In this document: in pieces, positions 40,614 through 64,000 of the stretch | Numbering within the stretch: the stretch's first letter is position 1 | Layout: every line of letters starts with the position of its first letter | Assembly: GCA_019044685.2 (NCBI GenBank) | Contig: JAGTXX020000017.1 | Span: forward strand, 496,001-560,000 | Length of the DNA stretch: 64,000 nucleotides | Reading direction: 5' to 3' | Source of the DNA: Nannochloris sp. 'desiccata' | Lineage: Eukaryota > Chlorophyta > Trebouxiophyceae > Chlorellales > Chlorellaceae | Notes under the pieces: model-generated | What the model saw: only the letters and a program-made list of their open reading frames with translations | What the model was told of the DNA's origin: nothing | The model's database searches: none | Position numbers and translations under genes: made by a program

Positions 40614-41707
40614 ATGAAGATCGTTGATAAAATTAACGAGAAGATCGCTGCTGGCGAGACATTTTACAGTTTTGAGTACTTCCCTCCCAAGACAGATGAG
40701 GGCGTGAAGAACTTGCAAGACCGCCAAGCGCGCATGGCTGCATTGGGACCTACTTTCTGTGATATCACATGGGGAGCAGGTGGCTCCACTGCTGACCTGA
40801 CCTTGACAATTGCTACAGACATGCAGAACAAGGCAAGTTGGATGCAAAGTTGAGGCTAGAAATTATAGCTCCATTTATTCCTCCTTTTGTATCAATCATC
40901 TCATTCTAACTGTTCTAGACCCAATTTTGCGAACCTTTTACGCAGGTAGGAGTTGAAACTATGATGCATTTAACCTGTACCAACATGCCCGTCGAAAAAC
41001 TAGAGGCAGCTTTACAACAATGCAAAGAAGCAGGCATCACAAACATCCTTGCTCTCCGTGGTGACCCTCCCCATGGTGAGGAACACTTTACTCAAGTTGA
41101 AGGCGGATTTTCCAGCGCTCTGGATTTGGTCAAATACATTCGTGAGCATCACGGTGATCATTTTGGAATTTGTGTTAGTGGCTACCCAGAAGCGCATCCA
41201 GAGAAGATTGTGGACGATGCCGAAGAAATGAAAAAGAACTACTGGGCAGATATTGATTACCTTAAACAGAAAATCGATGCAGGTGCAGATTTTATTATTA
41301 CACAACTTTTCTACGACGTTGATGTCTATGTACAATTTGTCAAAGATTGCAGATCTGTTGGTATCACTGTGCCTATTTTGCCAGGTATTATGCCTCTTAT
41401 GAATTATAACGGGTTTAAACGTATGACTTCTTTCTGCAAAACACGTGTTCCTCAACACATTACTGATGTCTTGGAAACGATTAAGGATAGTGATGAGGCC
41501 ATCAAGGCATACGGCATTTCTTTGGGCACGTTGATGTGTGAACGGTTATTGGCAGCTGGTGCCCCTGGATTGCATATGTATACATTAAATTTGGATAAAA
41601 GTGCAGTGGCAATTTTGAGGCATGTGAAGTTAATTCCTGCTGCTGCTCCTGCTCCTGTTCTTGAAGACAAGGAAGCCATTGCCATTGCAAACGGTGCTGC
41701 CAACTAA
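40614..41707 (+). CDS. MTHFR: Methylenetetrahydrofolate reductase, catalytic domain only
   Basis: Exons are 40614-40832 and 40946-41707 (326 aa). The donor is AAG|GCAAGT, a GC-AG intron; splicing joins TDMQNK to [11 protein letters not shown]. The eight-stranded barrel domain is complete: [11 protein letters not shown] (catalytic Glu), [55 protein letters not shown] and [12 protein letters not shown]. It reduces 5,10-methylene-THF to 5-methyl-THF for methionine synthesis. Eukaryotic MTHFRs normally add about 270 residues of SAM-binding regulatory domain. Here the protein stops after a short Ala/Pro tail, and only about 200 bp remain before the next gene. The start MKIVDKI matches plant MTHFR starts (MKVVEKI), so the N terminus is probably complete. 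Confidence 0.93.
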
Positions 41708-41915: not shown

Positions 41916-43266
41916 TTAATCAGCATACCCAAGGATTTTATCTTTAATCAATTTACCAAATCCAAACACTAAGAATCTATCCTCTCCAGTCAACTGTTTC
42001 AACGTCTCATCCGATAAAGCGTATTGCTTATTCGAGGGATCTTGTAGATTTCGTTGTTTGATATACGCCCATACTTTCTTTGTAATTTCCGGACGGGAAG
42101 CAGTCTCACTTCCCATCCATGCGGCCAAATCTGGAGCTAATTTGACAGGCTTTGTAAATCCATTCGGTTTTGCCGGTGCGCCATTTTTATTTACCCCACG
42201 GGTTGAGGATCCAGCAGGTTTTTTAGGGTTTCTAGGAGCTGGTACTACCTTTTTCTTTCTTGCTGCTTTAGGTTTCTCATGACCAACATCGCTGCCTTCA
42301 TCGTCTTCGCTCTCATCTTCACTTTCAGAGACATCTGCAGTGAACACATGTTTCGATAGATGTTTCTGCATGCTAAACATCGTCACACTCTTACCAGGAA
42401 AAATAGTCTTTAATTTGTCATCGAGAAGGATTTGTCGCCGATCTTTAGGGTTCTGTAAGTCGTTTGCTTTGATATATTCCCAGAGTTTTTTGACGACCTG
42501 CGTACGTGGACATCGTTCCATACCCAAGAACGTGGACATAGCTTCTGAAAGGATGTCGCCAAAACGAGAAGCGCCACCACCACCACCTCGAGATCGTTTA
42601 CGGGAACCGGTCGCCTTCTCTTCTTCCTCCTCATCGCTTTCTTCTTCCTCTTCATCGGCATTTCGATTATCTGCTTGAGCTTGCAAATACTTTTCTATCT
42701 CGCCTCGGATAAGAGCTTTCTTTGAAGACAGTTCTGCACCGAATTCAGTTTCCAATTGCCGACGTAACATTTTTTCTGCAAAAGATAATATAATTTTATG
42801 GAGGGGCAAAAGAAACTTTGTAAGAAATTTGATGAACTTGTCAGCATCTACAATATTATTAGCTTCCAAACTGATAAAGAGACACCATCTCACCAGTAGT
42901 TACACCCAAATCGACAGTTTTCAACACTTCACCCAGGCGAGCGACGAGGACATCATCAGATTGGGGTCCTTTAGCGCTTGGAGCGGCCTCCTGCGCAGGC
43001 TCAGCGGATGCTTCTGGAGCTGTTGCTGGTTCACTATGAGATGCTTCAGGCGCAGGTTGTGCCTCCTTCTTCTTAGGCTCCTCGGAAACCTCAGGTGCCA
43101 TCTTCTCTGGCTCGATGGGATTCTCCACCGGAGCTTCAGCAACAGGTTCCGCTGGCTTTTCTACCTGAGGAATGACAACATCAGGTGCATTAAGAACAAC
43201 TGAAGCGACTTCTTGGGCTGCACGAGCCTCGCTTGGTGGCACTTGGTCAACATTCAATTGGTTCAT
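41916..43266 (-). CDS. DEK-C / tandem SWIB-domain chromatin protein
   Basis: Exons are 43266-42894 and 42775-41916 (410 aa). The intron splits a Glu codon. The first 95 residues are Pro/Ala/Glu-rich. A DEK-C domain follows (VARLGEVLKTVDLGVTTG, then MLRRQLETEFGAELSSKK), straddling the intron. An acidic patch and KRSRGGGG follow, then SWIB/MDM2 domain 1 (RTQVVKKLWEYIKANDLQNP) and SWIB domain 2 (RPEITKKVWAYIKQRNLQDP), separated by a Lys/Pro-rich linker. This domain order is typical of plant and algal SWIB proteins tied to SWI/SNF complexes or rDNA transcription (UAF30-like). A 71-codon upstream ORF (43495-43280) may lie in the leader. Confidence 0.9.
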
Positions 43267-50287: not shown

Positions 50288-51900
50288 CTAAAGAAGGGTC
50301 TCTCTGGTAGGAATAGGCTTTGCTGTCTGTCTCCAGTACTCGGTGGCTTTAGAAATACCGCTGCCAATGGTAATAGGCACTCCAGCATCCTTCAATACCA
50401 TCTCTACACCGCACAAGGCACCCCCCAACATGAGCTCATCCATGTTACCAAGATGTCCAATGCGGAACACCTTACCCTTGACCTTATCTAAACCAATACC
50501 AAGAGATAAGTTATATTTTCCGTAAGCAATATCCACAATCTTTTGTGAATCGATTCCTTCGGGCACTTCAACGACAGTGAGGGAATCTGAATACCAACGA
50601 GGGTCCTTGCAAAGGAGTTTTAAGCCCCAGCCTTCAACTGCTTTACGGGTACCTTCAGCCAAACGATGATGTCTTGCTGCTACAGCTGTCATGCCACCTT
50701 CCTCACGCATCATCTTCAGAGATTCCCGGAGTCCGTATAACATTTGAGTTTCCGGGGTGTAGGGAACATTCCCACTGGGGTTAGTACGGAGCATATCTGC
50801 CCAGTCAAAGTAGCACCGTTTAGAAATTGCAGTTTTGGAGGCTTCAATAGCTTTATCAGAAACGCAGATCACGGCAAGACCAGTAGGAAGAGAAAGAGCC
50901 TTCTGAGAACCGGTGACGGCAACATCAACACGCCACTTGTCGAATTGGAAATCAAGCGCACCGATGGAGGAGACACCATCCACCAAAAGAAGAGCAGGAT
51001 GGGATTTAGAATCCATAGTCTTACGGACTTCACCGATGTCGGAGGTTACTCCGGTGGTAGTTTCATTGTGTACTACACAGACGGCTTTAATTTTCTTTTC
51101 AGTATCTTTGGCGAGGACCTCAGCGAGTTTCTCTTCATCAGCACCATCTCCCCAACGGCAGTCAATGACCTCAACTTCAAGACCCATGCGCTGCATCATG
51201 TCAATCCAGAGGTGAGAGAACATACCATAACGGAAAGTAACAACCTTGTCACCGGGTGAGAGCGTGTTGGTCAAAGCAGACTCCCAGCCACCTGTACCGG
51301 TACCAGGATAGAAGATAGGGGTCCCAGCAGTGGTGTTAAAGATCATCTTGGACTCTTCCAGGGATTTCTTGTAGAAATCAGCAAACCAGGCGTCTCTGTG
51401 GTTTTGTCCACCGACGTGCATTGCGCGGATAACATTCTCATGGATGTTGACAGGGCCTGTAGGAAAGAATGAGGATTGATACGGTTGTTAGAAGGTGTTC
51501 CTAAATTATTTTAATAGATAATAGCTGTGTAAAAAGAATGGAAATCGAGGTTCAACGCAAGACAGAAATCTACTACTACTACCCCAGAGGTTTGCGATCT
51601 GTGGGGTGTGGGGTGTCTGAGCAAGCGAGTTGAGGGTCTAGATTGGATCTTACCTGGCACAAAGAGATGGTTGCGTCCAGCAGGAACGTGGGAGAATGCA
51701 GGGCGTAAGTTGGGTACTTCGGATACAACCTACATTTTTTCAAAGGAGAATTTTAAGGCGATTAGCTAACACATTGGCACTCTAGGCTGGTCTATAAACA
51801 GTGAAAAATCTTCGATTCTCACATCGTCAGCAAAAGCGGGCATAGAGCTCCAAGCACGTTGGAGCAAAGACCTCTTGCGTAATGCTCTTGAGGCCAACAT
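50288..51900 (-). CDS. SGAT: Serine:glyoxylate aminotransferase, mitochondrial form
   Basis: Exons are 51900-51823, 51729-51654 and 51456-50288 (440 aa); phases fit and splicing assembles the family start LFVPGPVNIHENVIRAM. It is a class V PLP aminotransferase: GTGGWESALTNTLSPGD, VHNETTTGVTSDI, LLVDGVSSIGALDFQFDKW and the PLP lysine in VTGSQKALSLPTGLA. LSLGIGLDKVKGKVFRIGHL is diagnostic of plant-type SGAT. It transfers the amino group of serine to glyoxylate, giving hydroxypyruvate and glycine. The N terminus (MLASRALRKRSLLQRAWSSM) is Arg-rich and acid-free, a mitochondrial presequence. The C terminus (PTRETLL) is not a PTS1, whereas the plant enzyme ends in SRI. It is divergent from glycolate dehydrogenase. 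Confidence 0.96.
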
Positions 51901-52155
51901 CTTCTGTTATTAAGCTTTTCTTAAAGGTGACCCGTACTGATGCTTTGCAAATAAGAATAAAGCTGCAGAATAAATCAATTAAATTAGCTGATCTGCACTG
52001 AAATGCGCACGTTCATCAAGTTCACCCATTCACTTTTGGACTCGACTTTCTAAATCGCTCATATGGCATTGTAGGAGGATTTATGAGGTGGTGGGGTAGG
52101 CATTTGAGCTCAAATTTTTATCAGTTCACATATCAATAACCTCTACTAACTGGTC
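51901..52155. promoter_or_regulatory. Divergent 255-bp promoter between SGAT and glycolate dehydrogenase
   Basis: The two ATGs, for consecutive photorespiratory enzymes, are only 255 bp apart and face away from each other. Co-expression from a shared bidirectional promoter is inferred. No known motif is claimed. Confidence 0.6.
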
Positions 52156-55100
52156 ATGAAGCGTCGCGCGGCCTCCCTCCTGGGAGGCAGGCTTCGCGGA
52201 CTGGTGGCATCGGCCGAAGAGAATACTTTGCCTAGCTTGGCTTCAGGGTTCGTTGGGGCCCGTGCGCCAGCTGTCCAGCGCAATTTACCTTCCTCGATGT
52301 CTCAGATCCGGGCAGCAGCTCTCCCTGCACAACAAGTGGCTACCAAACTCCAACCCGATGTGCTTCCTCTCACCCACACGGATGAAGTCGGTGCTATTTC
52401 TATCGTAGAACCTCACGAAAAAGACTTTGTTCCCAAGGAATGGGAGAATGTTGATGGTAGACGCATTGAGGACGGCCGTTATGCAGCATTTATCCAAGAT
52501 GTTTCAAGTGAGTTTTGTGGCCACCGCCATTGATCTTGTCCTGGGCTGATCTGTTCAACTTAAATTAAACCAGATGACCTTTGTTTTCCACTCATTCTAC
52601 TTATTAAAACCATCCAAATCTGTCTATACCCTCTAATTTCTGATCCATAGAGAAATTTACTAACCAATTTTTATTTTCTTCAATCCCCTACAGGCTTCAT
52701 TCCCAAGGCCCGTCAGTTCACTGACCCTGTTCGTACCTTTGCCTACGGAACTGATGCTTCTTTCTACAGACTCAACCCCAAACTGGTCTTGAAAATCACC
52801 AGCGAAGAAGAGATCCAAAAGATTCTCCCTATCGCTGAGAAGCATGGTGTCCCTGTAACCTTCCGTGCCGCTGGCACCTCCCTTTCTGGGCAGGCTCTCA
52901 CCGACTCTGTGCTCTTAAAAATCAGTCACACTGGTAAAAACAACTTCAGAAACTACACTGTCCACGGTGATGGCTCTATGATTACAGTTGAGCCTGGTCT
53001 CATCGGCGGTGAAGTCAACCGCATTCTTGCCAATCACAAGCACAAGCACAACCACCCTGTTCAATACAAAATTGGACCTGACCCTGCTTCTATTGATTCC
53101 TGCATGATTGGTGGCATCGTTAATAACAACTCTTCTGGTATGTGCTGCGGTGTCAGTCAAAATACGTACCACACCTTGAAGGATATTCGTATCGTTCTTG
53201 CAGATGGTAGTATCCTGGACACTGCTGACGAGGGATCACGTGCTGCGTTCCTTAAAAATCATGCGGAGCTTGTCAAAGGTGTGGTTGACCTAGCCAAGAG
53301 GGTTCAAGCTGATAAACAATTAGCTTCTTTGATTCGTCGTAAATTCTCCATCAAGTGCACCACTGGATATTCTTTAAATGCCCTTGTAGACTTCCCTGTT
53401 GACGATCCTATCGAGATTGTGAAGCGTTTGATTATTGGTAGTGAAGGTACTCTTGGTTTCGTCTCTCAAGTGACCTACAACACAGTCCCTGAATGGCCAA
53501 ACAAGGCGTCTGCCTTTGTTCTATTCCCCGACATCATGTCTGCTTGCAAAGCAGCTGCTGTGCTTCGTCACGAAACTGCAGTTGATGCGGTAGAGTTATT
53601 TGATCGTGCTGCATTACGAGAATTCGAAGCTGATGAAAAAATGTCTACTTTAGTGCCAGACATCAAGGGCTGTGGCCCAATGGCGGCGGCTTTGTTGATT
53701 GAATGTCGCGGACAAACTTCTGAAGACTTGCACGCTCGTCTTGGCGAGATCCATTCCACCTTGCGTGCCTCCAATTTCCCGTATGGCCCTGACGTTGGTG
53801 TTGTCAAGGATCTTGATGACTATGCCTTCACCCACAACGATAAAGAAGCAAAGGTTTATTGGGACGCACGCAAAGGCTTAATTCCCATCGTTGGTGGAGC
53901 TCGTGAGGCTGGAACTACCATGCTTTTGGAAGATGTCGCTTGCCCTACTGACCGTCTGGGTGAGATGACTGTAGACTTGATTGAAATGTTCCAGAAGTTT
54001 GAATATCACGATGCATCATGCTTTGGTCACGCTTTGGAAGGAAATTTACACTTGGTCTTTTCTCAAGGATTCCGTACTCCTGAAGAAGTGAAACGATTCC
54101 AAGATATGATGGATGAAATGTGCTACATCGTCGCGGTGAAACACGGTGGTTCTTTGAAAGGTGAGCACGGCACTGGTCGTAACATGGCGCCCTATGTTGA
54201 GATGGAATGGGGTACCAAGGCAACCGAATTAATGTGGGAATTGAAAGGATTATTTGATCCAAGTAACATCCTCAACCCTGGTGTCATCTTAAACAAAGAT
54301 CCTATGGTCCACGTCAAACACTTGAAACCCTCCCCCACGGCGTCTCCTTTGGTAAATCGTTGTATCGAGTGCGGTTTCTGCGAAAGCAACTGTCCTTCCA
54401 AAGATTTGACTATCACTCCTCGTCAGCGTATTGCTGTGTACAAAGAAATTTACCGTCTCAAAGAAATGGAAGCTCGTACCCCTCAACAAGAAGCTCGTCT
54501 CGCTGAAATGTCTGCCATTTATGAATATGACGGTCAAGACACGTGTGCTGCTGACGGGATGTGCCAAGAGAAATGCCCTGTCAAAATTAACACTGGAGAG
54601 TTAATCAAACAAATCCGTAGTGAAGATATGGAAAAGATGCCTCGTGCTTCTGCTGTAGCCGATGCCATTGCCAACAACTTTTCATCAGTCGCCTGGGTAA
54701 TGAATAAAGCCTTGAATGTAGTGTCTGCTGCGCATGCTGTGATTGGAACTACCCCTATTCAAGCGATTTCTACTGCGTTAAATAGAGTATCTAATCATAT
54801 GATCCCTGAATGGAACCCCTACATGCCTAAAGGTGCATCTAAACTGGATTTAAACCCTGCCGCACCTGTCACCGCTACAAATTCTGAAACCCGTAGTATC
54901 CCTCGCAAGGTCGTCTACGCCCCTGCATGCGTTACCCGTATCATGGGACCTTCCCGTGGTGATGATCAGCAAGCCAGTGTCCACGAAAAGTTACTTTCCT
55001 TGTTCAATAAAGCAGGGTACGAGGTCATCTACCCCGAGGGCTTGTCCAACACATGCTGTGGGATGATGTTCAATAGTCGTGGCTTCAAGGATGCTGCTGC

Positions 55101-55626
55101 AAAGAAGGGTACCGAACTTGAGTCTGCTCTTATGAAGGCTTCGGAAGGTGGTAAGTATCCCATTGTTGTGGATACATCCCCATGTTTATCTCAAATCAAG
55201 GCAAGTCTCAGCGACCCCGCTCTTCGGTTTTCTTTATATGAGCCTGTCGAGTTCATTCGCCACTTCTTGGCAGATAAACTCGAGTTCACGAAAGTGAAAG
55301 ATTCTGTAGCTGTCCACGTGCCTTGCTCTTCCAAGAAAATGGGTATTGAAGAATCTTTCCTCAAGGTTGCCTCAATGTGTGCAGAGGAAGTGGTGCCTTC
55401 GAATATTCCATGCTGTGGTATGGCTGGTGATCGTGGAATGAGATACCCCGAGTTAACTGGATCTTCTTTACAACATTTGAATGTGGCCGGGTGCTCCGAT
55501 GGGTACTCTACCTCCCGTACTTGTGAAATGTCTTTGAGTAATCACTCTGGTATTAATTTTAGAGGTCTAGTGTATTTGGTCGACGAAGCCACAAAAGCGA
55601 AAGCATCTGAACAGCAACAACAGTAA
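52156..55626 (+). CDS. GYD1: Mitochondrial glycolate dehydrogenase (D-LDH-type FAD + Fe-S fusion)
   Basis: Exons are 52156-52507 and 52694-55626 (1094 aa, close to the length of the Chlamydomonas enzyme). It begins with MKRRAASLLGGRLRGL, a mitochondrial presequence. The FAD-binding domain (FAD_binding_4) has TFRAAGTSLSGQALTD, IGPDPASIDSCMIGGIVNNN and later GEHGTGRNMAPYVEMEW. Two [4Fe-4S] sites follow: RCIECGFCESNCPSK and DTCAADGMCQEKCPVKI. Then two CCG cysteine-rich domains (CCGMMFNSRGF; PCCGMAGDRGMRYPEL) as in GlcF. Bacterial GlcD and GlcF halves are thus one polypeptide. It oxidises glycolate to glyoxylate, passing electrons to ubiquinone rather than O2. Some homologues prefer D-lactate, so substrate choice is inferred from the SGAT/HPR neighbours. 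Confidence 0.9.
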
Positions 55627-56247
55627 CTTGACTGCGTTCAGTACCATTAGGAAAGATAATAGTAATAATAAAAGAGAAGATCAAGGGGAAAGTTTGCATT
55701 TGTTTGTTTGAAAGTAGGCATTTGAAAACTGCCTCTCTTGTCTTGTTGGTTTATTTCATAGGCGTCTCTCTTTTTTTATCTGGGCGTTGCTTTTTGTGAT
55801 GTTTTTTTTTTATTCTTTCCTCCCCTTTTTCATTTTCCCAATTCTCTTTTTCCAACCTTGGAGAGTTACCTGATTGAATGATTAATTGATTTGATCATTT
55901 CATCCCAACTTTGTACCTTTTCTTTCCGAATAATATTAAATGATTTCAAATTTCAACTCTGTACGGCACCCCCGAATTTTTATCTAAACGAAATCAATCT
56001 TTATTCCTCCTAACGAAGTCCCCTTTTCCTTTCTTTCTTTCCATTTCATAAATTTCACGCAACGATTTACTACTACTAATACTAAGTACTATGAGTATCT
56101 AATTGATTCAAGGACACCTCTGTAAATAAAAATATAATAATTATGATAAAAGTATACTGCTTGTCGAAAAAGGTAAATACCGTCAAGAAAATATATAATT
56201 GGTGGCTATAAAGTGCAAAGTTTTCTACTCTATCTATTGCTGTCTCT
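55627..56247. other. Convergent 3' region
   Basis: T-rich with TTTTTTTTT and CCTTTTTC runs; the 3' ends of glycolate dehydrogenase and the LOV gene converge here. No gene. Confidence 0.6.
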
Positions 56248-57549
56248 CTATTTCTGCTGTCCTTCACCTGCATTTGTTGGCTTAGCTCCAATGGTCCCAG
56301 GTTCTGCACCAGGTCTATATTGATCTGATAATGAACGTCGTAATCCACTCGTAGCAAGAGAGCGTACTGCTACCCGTACTGCCCCTACGGTACCTTTTTG
56401 CTGTAATATTTGCATTCCTGTCGCTTGAGCAGTAATATGATGGGCATTTCCATCAGTTTCATTGCCAATATCATGGCCATTAGTATCAGTTGCCAGGATT
56501 GCATCCTCTCCAGCGCTACTTGATCGACCACCGCTCCGTCCTTCACCTAATTCTAATTGCACCCCACAATAAAATTTGACCTCTCCGCCAGCATCTCTCA
56601 CCGGAGCTATATGTAAACAATTTTGAAATGGAGTTCCGTCTTTTTTATAATTTAAAATAGACACTGTAAACGCTTTTTTTGCAGCTAATCCTTCTCTAAT
56701 TATTCTTCTAGAATCCGGGTTGGTCTCAGGTCCTTGGAGCATCCGACAGTTTCTACCTAATAGCTCTGCACAGCTATACCCTGTTAACTCTAAAAACCCA
56801 GGGCTACAAAATACCATAGGCAGGTCTGGTAATTTGGGGTCGCACATAACAAAGGCGCCTGCAACAGAGCTCAGACCAGATAACAGTGAGGTCGGGATGC
56901 TTTTATCGGCCCCACATGTTTGACGACAGTTCTGTGCTATTAAATCAGCATTATGCATTATGTCTTGGGCCATTTGTTGGGCTTGTGCAAGCTCTTCTTT
57001 GGCCACGGCCTTGACCGCTTCTTCATTTATTTCTCCTGTACCTACAAACTCTGTAACGTCTACTTGAATGCCAATGTAATACTCAACTACACCAGACAAG
57101 CCTTTGATAGGAGCCAAGGTAAATGCGTTCCAGAATGGCTGCCCGTCTTTGCGGAAGTTCAGTAGGAGGACGCTGATTTGTCGTTCCTCTCTCATTGCTT
57201 CCCTAATTTCCATGATGGCTTGCGGGGAAGTGCCGGGACCCTGTTTAATGGATCAATAAGATGTCAGCAAACGAGAATCGCGGGAAAATGGTGAGAATTC
57301 AAGCTACCCTTTGGGAAGGCTTTGCATCAAAAATCTCGAAACAAATTTGCGATCTCTTTCTCTTACCTGCAAGAATCTGCAATTCTTGTTCAAAGTCTCT
57401 GCTGGGGAATAACCCGTCATCCTGAAAAACCCCTCCGAGGCATAGATAATTGGATTATCGGGCTCGCGAGGGTTACTAATTACGAAATTGAGCGAATATT
57501 GCGAGAAAAACGCGTCTAGGGCAGCTGCTTGAGACTGTAGACTAGCCAT
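56248..57549 (-). CDS. Twin-LOV-domain blue-light photoreceptor, no kinase
   Basis: Exons are 57549-57367 and 57240-56248 (391 aa), phase 0; the intron lies inside LOV1 just after its core motif. LOV1 (about residues 12-125) has LNKNCRFLQ with photoactive Cys57, then FRKDGQPFWNAF. LOV2 (about 185-290) has LLGRNCRMLQG with Cys226, then NYKKDGTPFQNCLHIAPV. The flavin-contact Asn and Gln positions look conserved in both (YYIGIQVDVTE; FYCGVQLELGE). No Ser/Thr kinase, F-box or bZIP is present; the tail is disordered. This matches the plant PAS/LOV (twin LOV protein) layout, whose output works through protein partners. It is divergently paired with hydroxypyruvate reductase. Confidence 0.9.
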
Positions 57550-58138
57550 TGTACTAAATAAGTAACCAAAAGTAATACTGTGAACTTGATTTTGTGCCCG
57601 ACAGCATGTATAGCTGGGAGTGCTGTGACACCTGAGCTCCGCCCGAAAAGGGCCAGAAAGAACTTGGACAGGCTTCAAAAACAGATACCCTGATGGGTAT
57701 TTCCTTGATTAACACTGCAGAGTCTTGTTAGACACGGCTGACAAAAAGAAATCAGTTAATTGAAAAAAACTCGAGAAAAGAAGAAAAAAACTGCTCTGTC
57801 CCGTTGCCGCCTTGAGTCGGCCCGCAAGGCTTGTAAATAGATTGACGAGATAGGAACCTCCTGAGGGTGCTTAGTTGTATTGTGAATGAATACCGATATA
57901 AGCTTGATTATCCTAGGATGTATGTGACAGCTTAGAAAAATTGACTTGATGGTTGCCATAACAAATACACAACTCAACTTGCAAAGCAGGGTCTTCCAAG
58001 TGTTGGAGGATTTGGGTGGAGAAACAGAGACGCACAAGAACTCCCATTTAAGCTGATCGAGGCTCCATTGTGTCATCTAATAGTATTTTATTTAGATTTG
58101 CTTGTGCAGACGTGCAGATATATAATAGATAGTTTGGC
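57550..58138. promoter_or_regulatory. Divergent promoter region, twin-LOV / hydroxypyruvate reductase
   Basis: 589 bp between starts. A minus-strand open stretch (57756-58076) appears to be chance. Shared light-responsive control is a hypothesis. Confidence 0.5.
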
Positions 58139-59507
58139 ATGGCACTCAGAAGTGTGCTCTCTCGCATTGCTGGTAGGGCTCTTACACCTGAAGTGAGGAC
58201 CTCTGCTGCTGCCCAAGCTTCAAGATCAATGACTACCAAAGCTAGTGTCAACGGCATTCCCGTCGAGGTGTGCATTTTATATCTAATCTTACAAAATCAC
58301 AACTTCCCGTCTGCCTTGATTGGCTGAATCTGCTCCTGATCAAGCCGTTTTTTAACCAACTTCCTCCTTTATACAGGTGCACAACCCTGACGGCGAACAT
58401 CGCGTCATCGTCACCAAAAATCTCCCTGGCGATCGCTGGCTCAATGTCCTCACCTCCTCTGGATGCCGTGTAGAAATCTGCACTTCTGAACAAACCATCC
58501 TCGATAACGCCACCATCAAGAAACTTCTCGACAAGAAATGCGATGGATTGATTGGCCAGCTCACTGAAGATTGGAGCTCCGAGCTCTTTGAAGCTCTCAA
58601 AGCTGCAGGTGGCAGAGCATACTCAAACTATGCAGTCGGCTACAACAATGTCATCGTGCCCGAGGCCACAAAACGCGGCATACCTGTAGGAAACACCCCT
58701 GGAGTCTTGACAGAAACCACCGCGGAGCTTGCTGCTGCGTTAACTATGGCAGCTGCCCGCCGTGTCGTCGAAGGAGATAACTTTATGCGTGCTAACAAGT
58801 ACAAAGGATGGTTGCCCACCCTCTTTGTCGGAAACTTACTTCAAGGTAAAACTGTCGGTATCGTCGGCGCTGGGCGTATTGGTAGCGCCTATGCACGTAT
58901 GATGGTTGAAGGACATAAAATGGATCTTATCTATTACGACCCATATCCCAACAAGTTCCTGGAAGAGTATATTTCAGACTATGGAAACTTATTAAAATCA
59001 AAAGGCGAGAAACCCGTCACAGCAAGAAGATGCGAAACTGTGGAGGAAGTACTTCGTGAATCTGATGTGGTCAGTCTTCACTGCAATCTTGACGAAAATA
59101 CCAAGCATTTAATTAATAAAGAAAGGTTGAATATGATGAAAAAAGATGCCGTGTTGGTGAATGCTGCCCGAGGACCATGTGTTGACGAGGTTGCTCTTGT
59201 AGCTCATTTAAAAGCAAATCCTGATTTCAGATGTGGTCTTGATGTATTTGAAGACGAACCTTTGATGAAACCTGGTCTTGGTGACTGCCCTAACGCTGTG
59301 GTCGTCCCTCATATTGCCTCTGCTACTCTGTGGACCAGAGCTGGTATGGCGACCTTGGCTGCATGCAACGTAGCTGCTACTTTGAAGGGCTACCCTGCTT
59401 GGACAAAGAACGATGTGTTGCCGTTTGTAGACGGACCGTTTGAGGATATCCCTAAGGCTGCTCCTTCTATTGTCAACGCAAAGGAATTGAACTTGCCCAC
59501 AGTCTAA
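58139..59507 (+). CDS. HPR1: NADH-dependent hydroxypyruvate reductase, mitochondrial form
   Basis: Exons are 58139-58267 and 58377-59507 (419 aa). Exon 1 encodes almost exactly the presequence (MALRSVLSRIAGRALTPEVR...SRSMTTKAS), and exon 2 begins the conserved protein (VHNPDGEHRVIVTKNLPGD). It is a D-2-hydroxyacid dehydrogenase: CDGLIGQLTEDW, GNTPGVLTETTAELAA, NAD-binding GAGRIGSAYARMMVEG, substrate Arg in NAARGPCVDE, Glu in FEDEP and catalytic His in VVPHIASAT. Matches plant peroxisomal HPR1 nearly end to end. The plant C terminus (LGLPVSKL) carries a PTS1; here it is LNLPTV, so the signal is absent. It converts hydroxypyruvate to D-glycerate and oxidises NADH from glycine decarboxylase. Confidence 0.97.
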
Positions 59508-59779: not shown

Positions 59780-60935
59780 TTACTCCAATGCAGGATTTAC
59801 AATCAGAACAACTTTACCCCTTGCATGCCCTTGTTCCATGTACTTATGAGCCTCTACTACCTCTTCCAATGGCACTTTTCTATCTATGATAGGCTTCAAG
59901 TTCCTGCTCTCCAGCAATGTAGCTACCTCGGCCATCTGTTCTCCATTAGGACTTACTAAAATAACTTTATATTTAGGGCCCAGGCGTAAGGTACCGAACA
60001 TTTTATTCTTTGCAAGGTGGTATAAAACAAACAGTGGAGCCATGCCCACACCACGTTCCTTGATCCACCCACTGTTTAAAACCGTAACCATTGTCCCTGT
60101 CTTTTTCAGCACCTTCATACTTCGAATTTCAACGGAACCTCCGATCAGGTCAATAACAGCATCGAAAGGTTCGTTTTTACAGACTTCTTCAAACTGTTGC
60201 GTGGTATAATCGATCGCCACATCGGCGCCCAGTTCCTTAGTACAAAAATCAATATTGCGGGTAGAGCAGGTGGTTGTCACGTGGAGACCACGTGCTTTTG
60301 CGATTTGAATAGCAACGCTACCTACGCCACCTGCCCCAGCATGGATAAGAAGTCTGTTGCCTGGGGAAAGAGAAGCTGCCTCCAAAGATTGCCAGGCTGT
60401 GAGAGACACAAGCGGTAAAGCGCCAGCGTCTGAGAGGGTAGTGTTGGCAGGGACCACAGCGAGTTGATTTTCTGGTGCGCAAAAGTACTCCGAGTAACAT
60501 CCTTCGCGGCTATACAGCTGGAAGCCTTCAGTGCAGCCAAATACTCGGGTCCCAGGAGGGAACTTGCTGCCCTCGTCGCTTTCAACAACAACGCCGCTCA
60601 AATCGCCTCCAAGAACCTGCAGGAAGGAAATGACGAGTTTCATTTTTACACTCAGTGGTTGTGGAATATTACAGTTTTCTTTCAAAGCATGCCGTGGAAG
60701 GCCGTCCAAGGCTAACCAAGACGACGGGGAACAGATCACTACTTTCATTGGGAAGCTTGACCATGAAGCGAGGCACCTCGCCCTTTCTAGTTTTATAATC
60801 AATAGGATTCACACTTGTCGAAGCGATTTGAACGAGGCAGCGGCCTTGGCCAGGTTTTCGCTCTGGCTTTGGCAGATCATTTCGAACTCGAAGAACTTCA
60901 GGGGGACCAAATTGTTCAAAAATTACACCTTTCAT
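59780..60935 (-). CDS. Zinc-free MDR-family quinone oxidoreductase
   Basis: Exons are 60935-60717 and 60616-59780 (351 aa). The start is MKGVIFEQFGPPEVL, the usual family start; longer upstream frames lack support. The donor is taken as TTG|GTTAGC; a second candidate two codons earlier (GTC|GTCTTG) would give the better-conserved FPVVLGGDLSG but is a poor splice site. Motifs: STSVNPIDYKTRKGEVP, VLGGDLSGVVVE, the nucleotide-binding LIHAGAGGVGSVAIQIAKA and GADVAIDYTT. The zinc-site cysteines of alcohol dehydrogenases are absent. Homologues reduce quinones or reactive enals using NADPH. A role against photooxidative carbonyls is possible but not shown. Confidence 0.88.
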
Positions 60936-61495: not shown

Positions 61496-64000
61496 TTAAG
61501 CTGTAGCATGGCGACCGCTGTTTCTGAGTCCACCACTCTCCTCAAACTCATACACAGGGATTACACCACCTTCAGTACGATCTGTACCTTCAGGATACTT
61601 GGCAGGACGAGAAGTTAAATACTCATTACAGGCAGCAGCTGCTTGTCTACCTTCAGCAATAGCCCAAACAACCAAAGACTGTCCACGACGGCAATCTCCA
61701 GCAGCGAATACACCATCAATAGAAGTCGCAAACTGGCCAAATTCAGCTTTGAAGTTGGAACGAGGATCAAGATCAACACCAAGCGCTTCTGCCAAAGTAG
61801 CCTCAGGGCCTAAGAAACCCATTGCAAGCAACACAAGATCAGCTTCAAGAATGCGCTCACTACCAGGGATTTCCTTAAATTTAGGAGGCCCACCAGCAGG
61901 GAATTCCCACTCCACTGAAACGATCTCAACTCCTTTCAAATTACCGTTACCATCATCAATAAACCGCTTGCTCAAGACCTCATACTCACGAGGGTCCTTT
62001 CCGTACTTGGCAGCAGCTTCCGCATGGCCATAATCTACCTTGAATACACGAGGGTAATATGGCCAAGGATTGTTTGCTCCACGAGTCTCCGGAGGTTGAC
62101 TTAACAACTCCAAATTGACGATGGAGGTCGCACCGTGGCGGAGAGAAGTTCCAATGCAATCAGTGCCAGTATCACCGCCACCGATGACGATAACTTTCTT
62201 CCCTTCAGCAGAGATGTATTTCCCATCAGCAAGGTTGGAATCAAGTAAAGATTTCGTATTAGCATGCAAAAACTCCATTGCAAAGTGAACTCCCTTTAAG
62301 CCACGACCTTCAATAGGCAAGTCGCGAGGCTTTGTTGCACCAGCAGCGAGAACAACTGCATCAGTGGCAGCACGAATAGATTTGATATCTACGCCTTTAC
62401 CAACGTGGGCTTCAGTAACAAAGGTAACTCCTTCCTCAGCCATCAAATTGACACGACGTTGAACAACATCAACTTTATCGGTTTTCATATTAGGCACTCC
62501 GTACATCATTAAGCCACCAGGACGGTCGGAACGTTCATATACAGTGACGGTGTGTCCAGCTTTGTTAAGCTGATCAGCTACAGCCATGCCTGCGGGGCCG
62601 CTTCCGATGACAGCAACACGGCGACCTGTGCGAGACATGGGAGGACGAGGAACAATCCATCCTTCGTCAAAGCCTTTGTCGATGATGGAAACTTCCATTG
62701 TTTTGATAGTGACAGGATTTTGGTTGATACCCAGCACACAAGAACCTTCACAGGGAGCAGGGCAGACACGGCCGGTAAATTCAGGGAAATTATTCGTTTC
62801 CAAAAGACGGTCCAAAGCTTCACGCCACCTTCCTTGCCAGACCAGAGTATTCCACTCGGGAATCAAGTTACCAAGAGGGCAACCAGTGGTCCGGTTAAGG
62901 CAGTAAGGGGTTCCGCAATCCATGCAACGAGCACTTTGTGTGTTGAGTAAATCTGCTTGCTCGGCCTTGGGTAAATGAGCATGCACCTCGCCCCAGTCTT
63001 CCATGCGTTCCTCAACAGGGCGATAGGGCATAGGAGAACGTTCATAAGACACAAATCCACGATTCTTTTGTGCAGTACCATCAGGAAGAACAGTAGGACG
63101 ACCAGCTTCCCAAACAGCGGGCCAACCGCCGACAGGCTGACCCGCAGAGGCGTTGTGCAGTAACTTTGCAAATTCCTTTTGAGCATCAAGCGTGGGTGCG
63201 GAACCGTTCGCAGCGGCTGCAGTGGTAGCAGCTTCAACTGCTCTGCGAGCAGAAGCAAAGGCAGCAGGTGATTTAGGACCAGGTGGTGCCTTCACTACCT
63301 CCATCGCCAACGACTTGAGTTGTTCAAAGGCATCAACATTAAGATTAACACCAGCAAGGAGATCTTCTTCGTCTTTACGTGCAGCAGCAAGTTTCGCAGC
63401 TTCATCCAACGCACGGCGGTATTCATGAGGGAATACTTTGACAAAACTGCGAACAGAACGACCCCAATCAGCAAGAAGTGACGTTGCCAAAGGGGACTTT
63501 GTATACTGAGCGTGTTTTTCGACCAAAGAGTGAAGTAAAGCCAGATCTGCTTCTTCATCAACAGGGAAAAGATCAGAAGATACGTCCACATTGCACAGTT
63601 TACCTAAACGGCTATCAGGATCATACACAAAAGCAAGACCACCACTCATTCCGGCACCGAAATTTTTTCCAGTTTTACCAAGAATGACCGCAGTTCCACC
63701 AGTCATGTATTCCAAAGCATGGTCACCAACACCTTCAACAACAGCCTGTGCACCAGAATTACGTACACAGAACCTTTCTGCAGCAATTCCACTGAAATAC
63801 GCCTCACCTTTGACGGCTCCATAAAGACAGACATTCCCGACAATAACATTCTCTTCAGGTTTAAAAGTAGCGGTCGCGGGTGGGTAGACAGCAAGAACAC
63901 CACCAGAAAGACCTTTACCAACATAATCATTGGCATCACCTTCAAGTCTGATGGTAATACCAGAGCAAACCCAGGCACCCAGGGACTGACCAGCATGGCC
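61496..64000 (-). CDS. GLT1: NADH-type glutamate synthase (GOGAT), C-terminal 834 residues, cut by the window edge
   Basis: Open throughout from the window edge to TAA; no intron is needed. The fragment starts inside the GXGXG domain of the alpha portion ([11 protein letters not shown]...[36 protein letters not shown]). A linker follows, then the beta portion: [20 protein letters not shown] and [14 protein letters not shown] (cysteines for [4Fe-4S] clusters), FAD site [19 protein letters not shown](P)H site [15 protein letters not shown], and [18 protein letters not shown]. Alpha and beta on one chain define the NADH-GOGAT of plants, fungi and algae, as opposed to plastid Fd-GOGAT. It makes glutamate from 2-oxoglutarate and glutamine, so could re-assimilate photorespiratory ammonia. 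Confidence 0.97.

Follow-up and report, generated by a model that had tools for sequence, protein, structure and literature searches.

A photorespiration gene cluster in the nuclear genome of the green alga Nannochloris sp. 'desiccata'

Introduction

A photorespiration gene cluster has been reported in the green alga Picochlorum SENEW3 (PMC12198440). Here we describe a cluster of this kind in Nannochloris sp. 'desiccata' (N. desiccata), found in a stretch of 64,000 nucleotides (the window) in which the genes for serine:glyoxylate aminotransferase (SGAT), glycolate dehydrogenase (GDH) and hydroxypyruvate reductase (HPR) stand close together with the gene of a predicted LOV photoreceptor. Foflonker and Blaby-Haas (2020), who described conserved neighbourhoods among ten green algae, N. 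desiccata not included, name photorespiration as one of five functional clusters reported before that they found again, with reference to Foflonker et al. (2016) for Picochlorum (PMC7826186). Some Picochlorum functional clusters were found to be co-expressed under salinity stress (PMC12198440). A preliminary description of the window had stated that it knew of no photorespiration cluster described in a eukaryote; the implied novelty does not stand, since the Picochlorum cluster is in print (PMC7826186; PMC12198440).

The Picochlorum cluster, known here through citing papers and by pathway name, likewise consists of nuclear photorespiration genes close together in the small genome of a trebouxiophyte, and is likewise conserved. 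We take Picochlorum to be closely akin to Nannochloris, and the N. desiccata locus is possibly the Picochlorum cluster in another genus. In NCBI taxonomy the two genera belong to the same class. The nitrate assimilation cluster of green algae is also made up of nuclear genes of primary metabolism, whose expression changes together (Quesada et al., 1993, cited in PMC7826186; PMC12198440). That cluster serves nutrient uptake and includes transporters, whereas the cluster in N. desiccata concerns central C2 recycling and includes a photoreceptor gene. In bacteria, genes of glycolate oxidation are brought together in the glc operon (glcDEFGB). The N. desiccata locus resembles it in this grouping; in contrast to the operon, its genes are divergent and spliced, its GDH is a fusion, and its SGAT and HPR are of the plant/algal type.

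Layout of the locus

The window corresponds to C17:100438-164437, minus strand, in a genome of 21.55 Mb and 18 contigs, denoted here by C and a number. For strain UTEX 2526, 21.6 Mb and 9,123 genes are given (PMC12636532). Gene models built by splicing at GT-AG borders yielded four full-length proteins, encoded within 9220 bp (window 50288-59507; Table 1). The SGAT and GDH genes stand head to head, as do the LOV and HPR genes, and GDH and LOV meet tail to tail. Because the strands alternate (SGAT -, GDH +, LOV -, HPR +), the locus consists of two divergent pairs and is not an operon of consecutive genes on one strand. The SGAT and GDH models are letter-for-letter identical to database proteins P0241 and P0001, the latter a protein of Nannochloris sp. 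'desiccata', and the HPR model differs from P0121 by a single residue (259, A/V). The locus tags of the SGAT and GDH genes, Ndes2526B_g09646 and Ndes2526B_g09647, are adjacent.

The photorespiration gene cluster in N. desiccata is real. Spliced models and homology bear out the preliminary description as to gene identities, coordinates, the eukaryotic nature of the genome and the consecutive reactions, and the LOV gene is, as it had said, the only one detected between the three enzyme genes. Bacterial contamination or a transferred operon was considered and is ruled out: the genes are spliced, their orientation is divergent, and the closest named matches are green algae.

Table 1. Features of the cluster and its surroundings. 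Positions are those of the window unless preceded by C17.
Feature	Position	Strand	Exons	Remarks
SGAT, serine:glyoxylate aminotransferase	50288..51900	-	51900-51823, 51729-51654, 51456-50288	3 exons, 440 aa; gene model, PF00266, 6pk1 match
SGAT/GDH divergent intergenic region, putative shared promoter	51901..52155			255 bp between start codons
GDH, glycolate dehydrogenase	52156..55626	+	52156-52507, 52694-55626	2 exons, 1094 aa; FAD-binding and 4Fe-4S/Cys-rich halves fused
LOV photoreceptor (predicted)	56248..57549	-	57549-57367, 57240-56248	2 exons, 391 aa; two LOV domains
LOV/HPR divergent intergenic region	57550..58138			589 bp between start codons
HPR, hydroxypyruvate reductase, HPR1 type	58139..59507	+	58139-58267, 58377-59507	2 exons, 419 aa; PF02826/PF00389
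Zinc-type quinone oxidoreductase	59780..60935	-		adjoins HPR; Pfam, NCBIfam; pathway link not evident
NADH-type glutamate synthase (GOGAT), 3' part	61496..64000	-		large and small parts fused; runs on to ~C17:96503
GDP-mannose 4,6-dehydratase and related NAD-dependent epimerase	C17:84414-87304			adjacent, divergent
NADP-malate dehydrogenase	C17, 82.6 kb
ETF-domain gene	C17, 78 kb
AGT, animal/cyanobacterial AGXT type	C17, 73.3-74.7 kb			family assignment
AAT, alanine/glutamate:glyoxylate-type aminotransferase	C17, 71.2-72.5 kb			divergent from AGT; family assignment
Mitochondrial-type malate dehydrogenase	C17, 69.4 kb

Identity of the encoded proteins

In protein searches GDH was 66% identical over 99% to Chlamydomonas CHLRE_06g288700, HPR 72% over 100% to CHLRE_06g295450, and SGAT 72% over 94% to CHLRE_01g005150, which are listed as GDH, HPR1 and SGAT, respectively (PMC8320531). 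GDH carries PF01565, PF02913, PF13183 and PF12838 and has the architecture of the green-algal single polypeptide of ~1100 aa (FAD_binding_4, FAD-oxidase_C, 4Fe-4S). HPR, with PF00389 and PF02826, falls into the HPR1 type by pairwise homology. SGAT is a full-length class V aminotransferase (PF00266), nearer to plant/algal SGAT than to animal AGXT; its best solved match is serine:glyoxylate aminotransferase 6pk1 at 472 bits, the next reaching 157 bits. None of the three enzymes reached a curated NCBIfam cut-off, in models built for bacteria and archaea. To judge by sequence, GDH would make glyoxylate, SGAT would turn glyoxylate and serine into glycine and hydroxypyruvate, and HPR would reduce hydroxypyruvate to glycerate.

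This row would not be a continuous pathway if the 1094-aa flavoprotein were a D-lactate or D-2-hydroxyglutarate dehydrogenase, which we regard as very improbable. Among the matches listed, databases name its relatives variously as glycolate oxidase subunit, glycolate dehydrogenase or D-lactate dehydrogenase, the last being used by UniRef and JGI. Its solved relatives are all distant (best 100 bits) and comprise lactate, glycolate-oxidase, D-lactate and D-2-hydroxyglutarate enzymes, and its scores against NCBIfam glcD (169 bits) and YdiJ (152 bits) are both far under the cut-off. Against such an identity stand the extensive similarity to Chlamydomonas GDH, a Haematococcus relative named glycolate dehydrogenase, and neighbours that use glyoxylate and hydroxypyruvate; for D-lactate and D-2-hydroxyglutarate dehydrogenase, the shorter FAD-oxidase genes of C7 and C1 make better candidates. 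The genome also has one separate full-length gene of the FMN-dependent 2-hydroxyacid oxidase type, at C5:103925, the product of which might oxidise glycolate. Given this gene and the split in the relatives' names, GDH is not proved to be the sole glycolate oxidiser.

The N-termini of the three enzymes are basic and rich in Ser, Ala and Leu (the first 30 residues hold 5 R/K and 1-3 D/E), and none of the C-termini (TLL in SGAT, QQQ and PTV in the others) is of the SKL type. Because the N-termini are basic and poor in acidic residues and there is no peroxisomal SKL-type end, the three may be imported into mitochondria. This would be consistent with Chlamydomonas, in which glycolate is oxidised in mitochondria via GDH (PMC8320531).

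In the 391-aa protein PAS_9 was found in two stretches, phototropin LOV structures are the best solved matches, and both LOV domains carry NCR(F/M)LQ in translation, which contains the flavin-adduct cysteine. We take this motif to be the LOV signature of the photoactive type. By its domains and motif the protein is a predicted LOV photoreceptor.

Chance and linkage in other algae

The probability of such an arrangement was estimated by placing 17 photorespiration genes, those of Chlamydomonas in Table 2 of PMC8320531, at random among 9,123 genes, a count that includes duplicated contigs. Three genes fell within four slots in 9e-5 of simulations (1.5e-4 analytically). If the AAT and AGT further out (Table 1) are included, five genes lie within 20 slots, which was seen in 0 of 100,000 simulations (7e-7 analytically); this second test is post hoc, with AAT and AGT assigned by family only. 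Chance adjacency noticed by a pattern-seeking reader gains somewhat if a factor of 200 for pathways and all triples of 12 genes are allowed for, which gives ~0.01. It is rejected because the same linkage recurs in other genera, and we find it hardly credible.

Linkage in relatives was read from locus tags and contig sizes, because scans of viral and genome contig sets with GDH gave no match. Protein searches supplied the best 120 of ~8,000 matches for each enzyme, of which 107 (GDH), 110 (HPR) and 111 (SGAT) came with a contig. Genes were taken as linked when they lay on contigs >10 kb of exactly equal size in bp, with 46, 41 and 37 such contigs listed for GDH, HPR and SGAT, respectively. GDH and HPR had 6 contigs of equal size, GDH and SGAT 8, and HPR and SGAT 4, against 0.004-0.007 expected per pair. 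Altogether 16 distinct contigs >10 kb hold at least two of the three genes among the matches listed, where ~0.02 would be expected. Four coincidences at sizes of ≤10 kb (GDH/SGAT 1, HPR/SGAT 3) were left out as chance, and Coccomyxa and Auxenochlorella were left out because different strains or assemblies were involved. Differing contig sizes are weak evidence of separation, the longest contig being given for each protein cluster.

One of the 16 contigs, of 1,925,892 bp, comes from the protein clusters of N. desiccata itself. Another, of 9,023,763 bp, is chromosome 6 of Chlamydomonas, on which the tags of GDH and HPR are widely separated. Eight contigs measure 13-324 kb, which makes linkage on them at least moderately tight, and the one of 323,881 bp carries all three genes. 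Locus tags are consecutive for GDH and SGAT in C. vulgaris (D9Q98_005775 and D9Q98_005776), and SGAT and GDH are adjacent in a EukProt entry (scaffold11.g4003 and g4004). In Micractinium CCAP 211/92, HPR (ABPG77_007856) and GDH (ABPG77_007858) have one tag between them, as in N. desiccata.

At least one pair lies on one contig in 10 of the 22 named algae present in at least two match lists. Nine are trebouxiophytes: N. desiccata, Micractinium CCAP 211/92, M. conductrix, Chlorella vulgaris, C. sorokiniana, Elliptochloris, Symbiochloris, Apatococcus and Myrmecia, Chlorella being presumably a member of the class. The tenth, Chlamydomonas reinhardtii, is outside the Trebouxiophyceae. The shared contigs of C. 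sorokiniana, Apatococcus and Myrmecia are 4-6 Mb long and weakly informative on linkage. Classes of key genera were checked in NCBI taxonomy. Linkage of these genes is common to other Chlorellaceae and, more loosely, to other trebouxiophytes. Scattered genes in close relatives, named in the preliminary description as an outcome that would count against it, were not what was found: within the best 120 of ~8,000 matches, all nine named Trebouxiophyceae present in at least two lists have at least one pair on one contig.

Co-regulation and inheritance

The locus is a genuine nuclear neighbourhood of photorespiration of the green-algal kind, which uses glycolate dehydrogenase. We think it probable that this neighbourhood is old and that its linkage has been kept through co-regulation of its genes. 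Limiting CO2 would switch the cluster genes on together, favouring kept linkage, and linkage would let the producer and the consumers of reactive glyoxylate and hydroxypyruvate be inherited and dosed together. SGAT and GDH are perhaps driven by a common divergent promoter, which is plausible because the spacer is just 255 bp. In Chlamydomonas, AAT1, GLYK, GDH, HPR1, SGAT1 and glycine decarboxylase (GDC) enzymes depend on CIA5 and CO2; phosphoglycolate phosphatase (PGP), serine hydroxymethyltransferase (SHMT) and GDC-H were independent of both in the same study (PMC8320531). The clustered GDH, SGAT and HPR, perhaps with AAT further out, belong to the dependent set, and PGP and SHMT lie outside the cluster. 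Other work cited in the same paper showed AAT1, GDH and HPR1 to be affected by light intensity (PMC8320531).

A number of observations weigh against this explanation. According to other work cited in PMC8320531, the PGP genes and GDC-H are also induced by low CO2. The Chlamydomonas orthologues are co-regulated though dispersed, GDH and HPR being far apart on chromosome 6 and SGAT on chromosome 1 (PMC8320531); since the genes respond together there without being clustered, clustering can be no more than an aid. GDC-P and GDC-T are co-regulated in Chlamydomonas, yet lie elsewhere in N. desiccata, and no expression data were found for this alga. The tags and contig sizes from which linkage in relatives was read are silent on gene orientation, and in Myrmecia SGAT sits apart from GDH and HPR, on a different contig. 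In twelve of the 22 named algae, all outside the Trebouxiophyceae, no two of the genes share a contig, which in some cases may be due to fragmented assemblies: Edaphochlamys, Chlamydomonas eustigma, Volvox reticuliferus, Haematococcus, Scenedesmus PABB004, Scenedesmus NREL 46B-D3, Sanguina, Raphidocelis, Monoraphidium, Astrephomene, Bryopsis and Pedinophyceae sp. YPF-701. We take Volvox, Haematococcus, the two Scenedesmus, C. eustigma and Bryopsis to be Chlorophyceae or Ulvophyceae; nine to eleven of the 12 fall into these classes, and for Sanguina, Raphidocelis, Monoraphidium, Edaphochlamys and Astrephomene the class was looked up. In the pedinophyte the three genes are on three different contigs.

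A candidate for a common promoter element belongs with these points. Both divergent regions share the 11-mer ATCAAGTTCAC, which occurs once in each and nowhere else in the window. They also have more 9- and 10-mers in common than random noncoding pairs of the window; the fractions were 0.014, 0.014 and 0.043 for 9-, 10- and 11-mers. Genome-wide the 11-mer matches 20 times, compared with 7 times for the reversed pattern, and up to 14 of the 20 lie elsewhere when copies are discounted. No further site was found within 10 kb of the located pathway genes, the nearest lying 12.4 kb away from a PGP-type match on C1. The motif is weak and was chosen in hindsight, and we make no claim for it.

The linkage might instead have been passively inherited from an ancestral chlorophyte chromosome by slow rearrangement in small trebouxiophyte genomes, with no selection or functional coupling, which we hold to be possible but unlikely. 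Chromosome 6 of Chlamydomonas fits such a history, with GDH (06g288700), SHMT2 (06g293950), AGT1 (06g294650) and HPR1 (06g295450) in its numbering (PMC8320531, Table 2), as does C9, a single contig that carries GDH, HPR, SGAT, an AGT, an AAT and one SHMT (C9:999530). The gene sets shared by C9 and chromosome 6, in which the SHMT and AGT copies are matched by family, suggest an old linkage group. However, SGAT is on another chromosome in Chlamydomonas, so that in this group it specifically came to lie beside GDH or kept its place there, and by tag GDH and HPR are far closer in N. desiccata and Micractinium than in Chlamydomonas. The photorespiration cluster is also one of the neighbourhoods found to be conserved between species. 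Significant co-expression in Chlamydomonas was reported for 11 neighbourhoods, among them 'the four' described earlier, which are not specified in the excerpts consulted (PMC7826186).

Surroundings, other pathway genes and copies of the region

Beyond HPR, past the right end of the window, the AGT gene ends at a distance of 30.2 kb and AAT at 32.5 kb, with the NADH-type GOGAT between; the stretch that runs from AAT to SGAT covers ~43 kb. On C6 there is one close paralogue of AAT, with 53% identity. The epimerase beside the GDP-mannose 4,6-dehydratase is, we assume, probably GDP-fucose synthase. An exon of methylenetetrahydrofolate reductase, an enzyme of one-carbon metabolism, is found at window 40919-41704, ~9 kb from SGAT.

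The preliminary description had asked whether genes for glycine decarboxylase, SHMT, glycerate kinase or PGP adjoin the window. At 2-36 kb from HPR, on its far side, there are genes for NADH-type GOGAT, malate dehydrogenase, AAT and AGT. A larger cluster with GDC-P, GDC-T, SHMT or PGP was considered and rejected, all of these being located elsewhere; glycerate kinase and GDC-H/L were not searched for. GDC-P has two copies on C15, GDC-T-type matches are on C10 and C1, SHMT is on C7, C6 and C9:999530, and PGP-type phosphatase matches are on C1 (two) and C6 (one short). A second GOGAT, presumed to be of the ferredoxin type, is on C15. The SHMT at C9:999530 shares its contig with a copy of the cluster, ~154 kb from AAT. 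On C7 an SHMT match is ~3.3 kb from a match to an FAD-oxidase of the D-lactate or D-2-hydroxyglutarate dehydrogenase type (C7:492360-497585), perhaps another small neighbourhood.

A more far-reaching proposal is that the whole 43-kb neighbourhood (AAT-AGT, NADP-malate dehydrogenase, NADH-GOGAT, HPR, LOV, GDH and SGAT) derives from a linkage group that is also seen on Chlamydomonas chromosome 6 and was kept by selection for joint low-CO2 control, and that through the embedded two-LOV protein, the gene of which would share a divergent promoter with HPR, blue light would act on the regulation of the C2 cycle. We regard this as improbable.

The cluster region is present three times in the assembly, at C17:71246-114150, as a mirror copy at C17:546288-589192, and at C9:1154503-1198903. 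Coordinates of the two C17 copies sum to 660438 for seven matches, and 10 kb sampled were 100% identical; the mirroring does not extend to the first and last 10 kb of C17 or to its middle (325-335 kb). The C9 copy is 99.0-99.6% identical to C17 in the stretches compared. Between C9 and C17, silent and non-silent codon changes number 5 and 2 in SGAT, 20 and 5 in GDH, and 8 and 1 in HPR, and LOV is identical. The C9 copy has a 1493-bp insertion at window 61258, between the quinone oxidoreductase and GOGAT, which the C17 copy lacks. The triple occurrence reflects either a haplotype plus an assembly artefact or a recent inverted duplication. C15 also has mirrored copies, of GDC-P at 231438 (+) and 1029469 (-) and of the second GOGAT at 42767 (-) and 1221459 (+); their coordinate sums differ by 2.9 kb, a pattern such as the head-to-head fusion of two haplotypes would leave.

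Significance of the cluster

In the excerpts consulted of the literature on Picochlorum and green-algal clusters, we found no mention of a LOV gene between GDH and HPR, of AAT and AGT nearby, or of the parallel with Chlamydomonas chromosome 6. Since the Picochlorum photorespiration cluster is already published, the N. desiccata cluster overturns nothing. Clusters of primary-metabolism genes are uncommon in nuclear genomes, and this one holds the glyoxylate-handling steps. Being compact, the locus lends itself to tests of how the control of photorespiration by low CO2 evolved, and of whether linkage matters or shared transcription factors suffice. The LOV gene adds a concrete and cheap hypothesis of light input.

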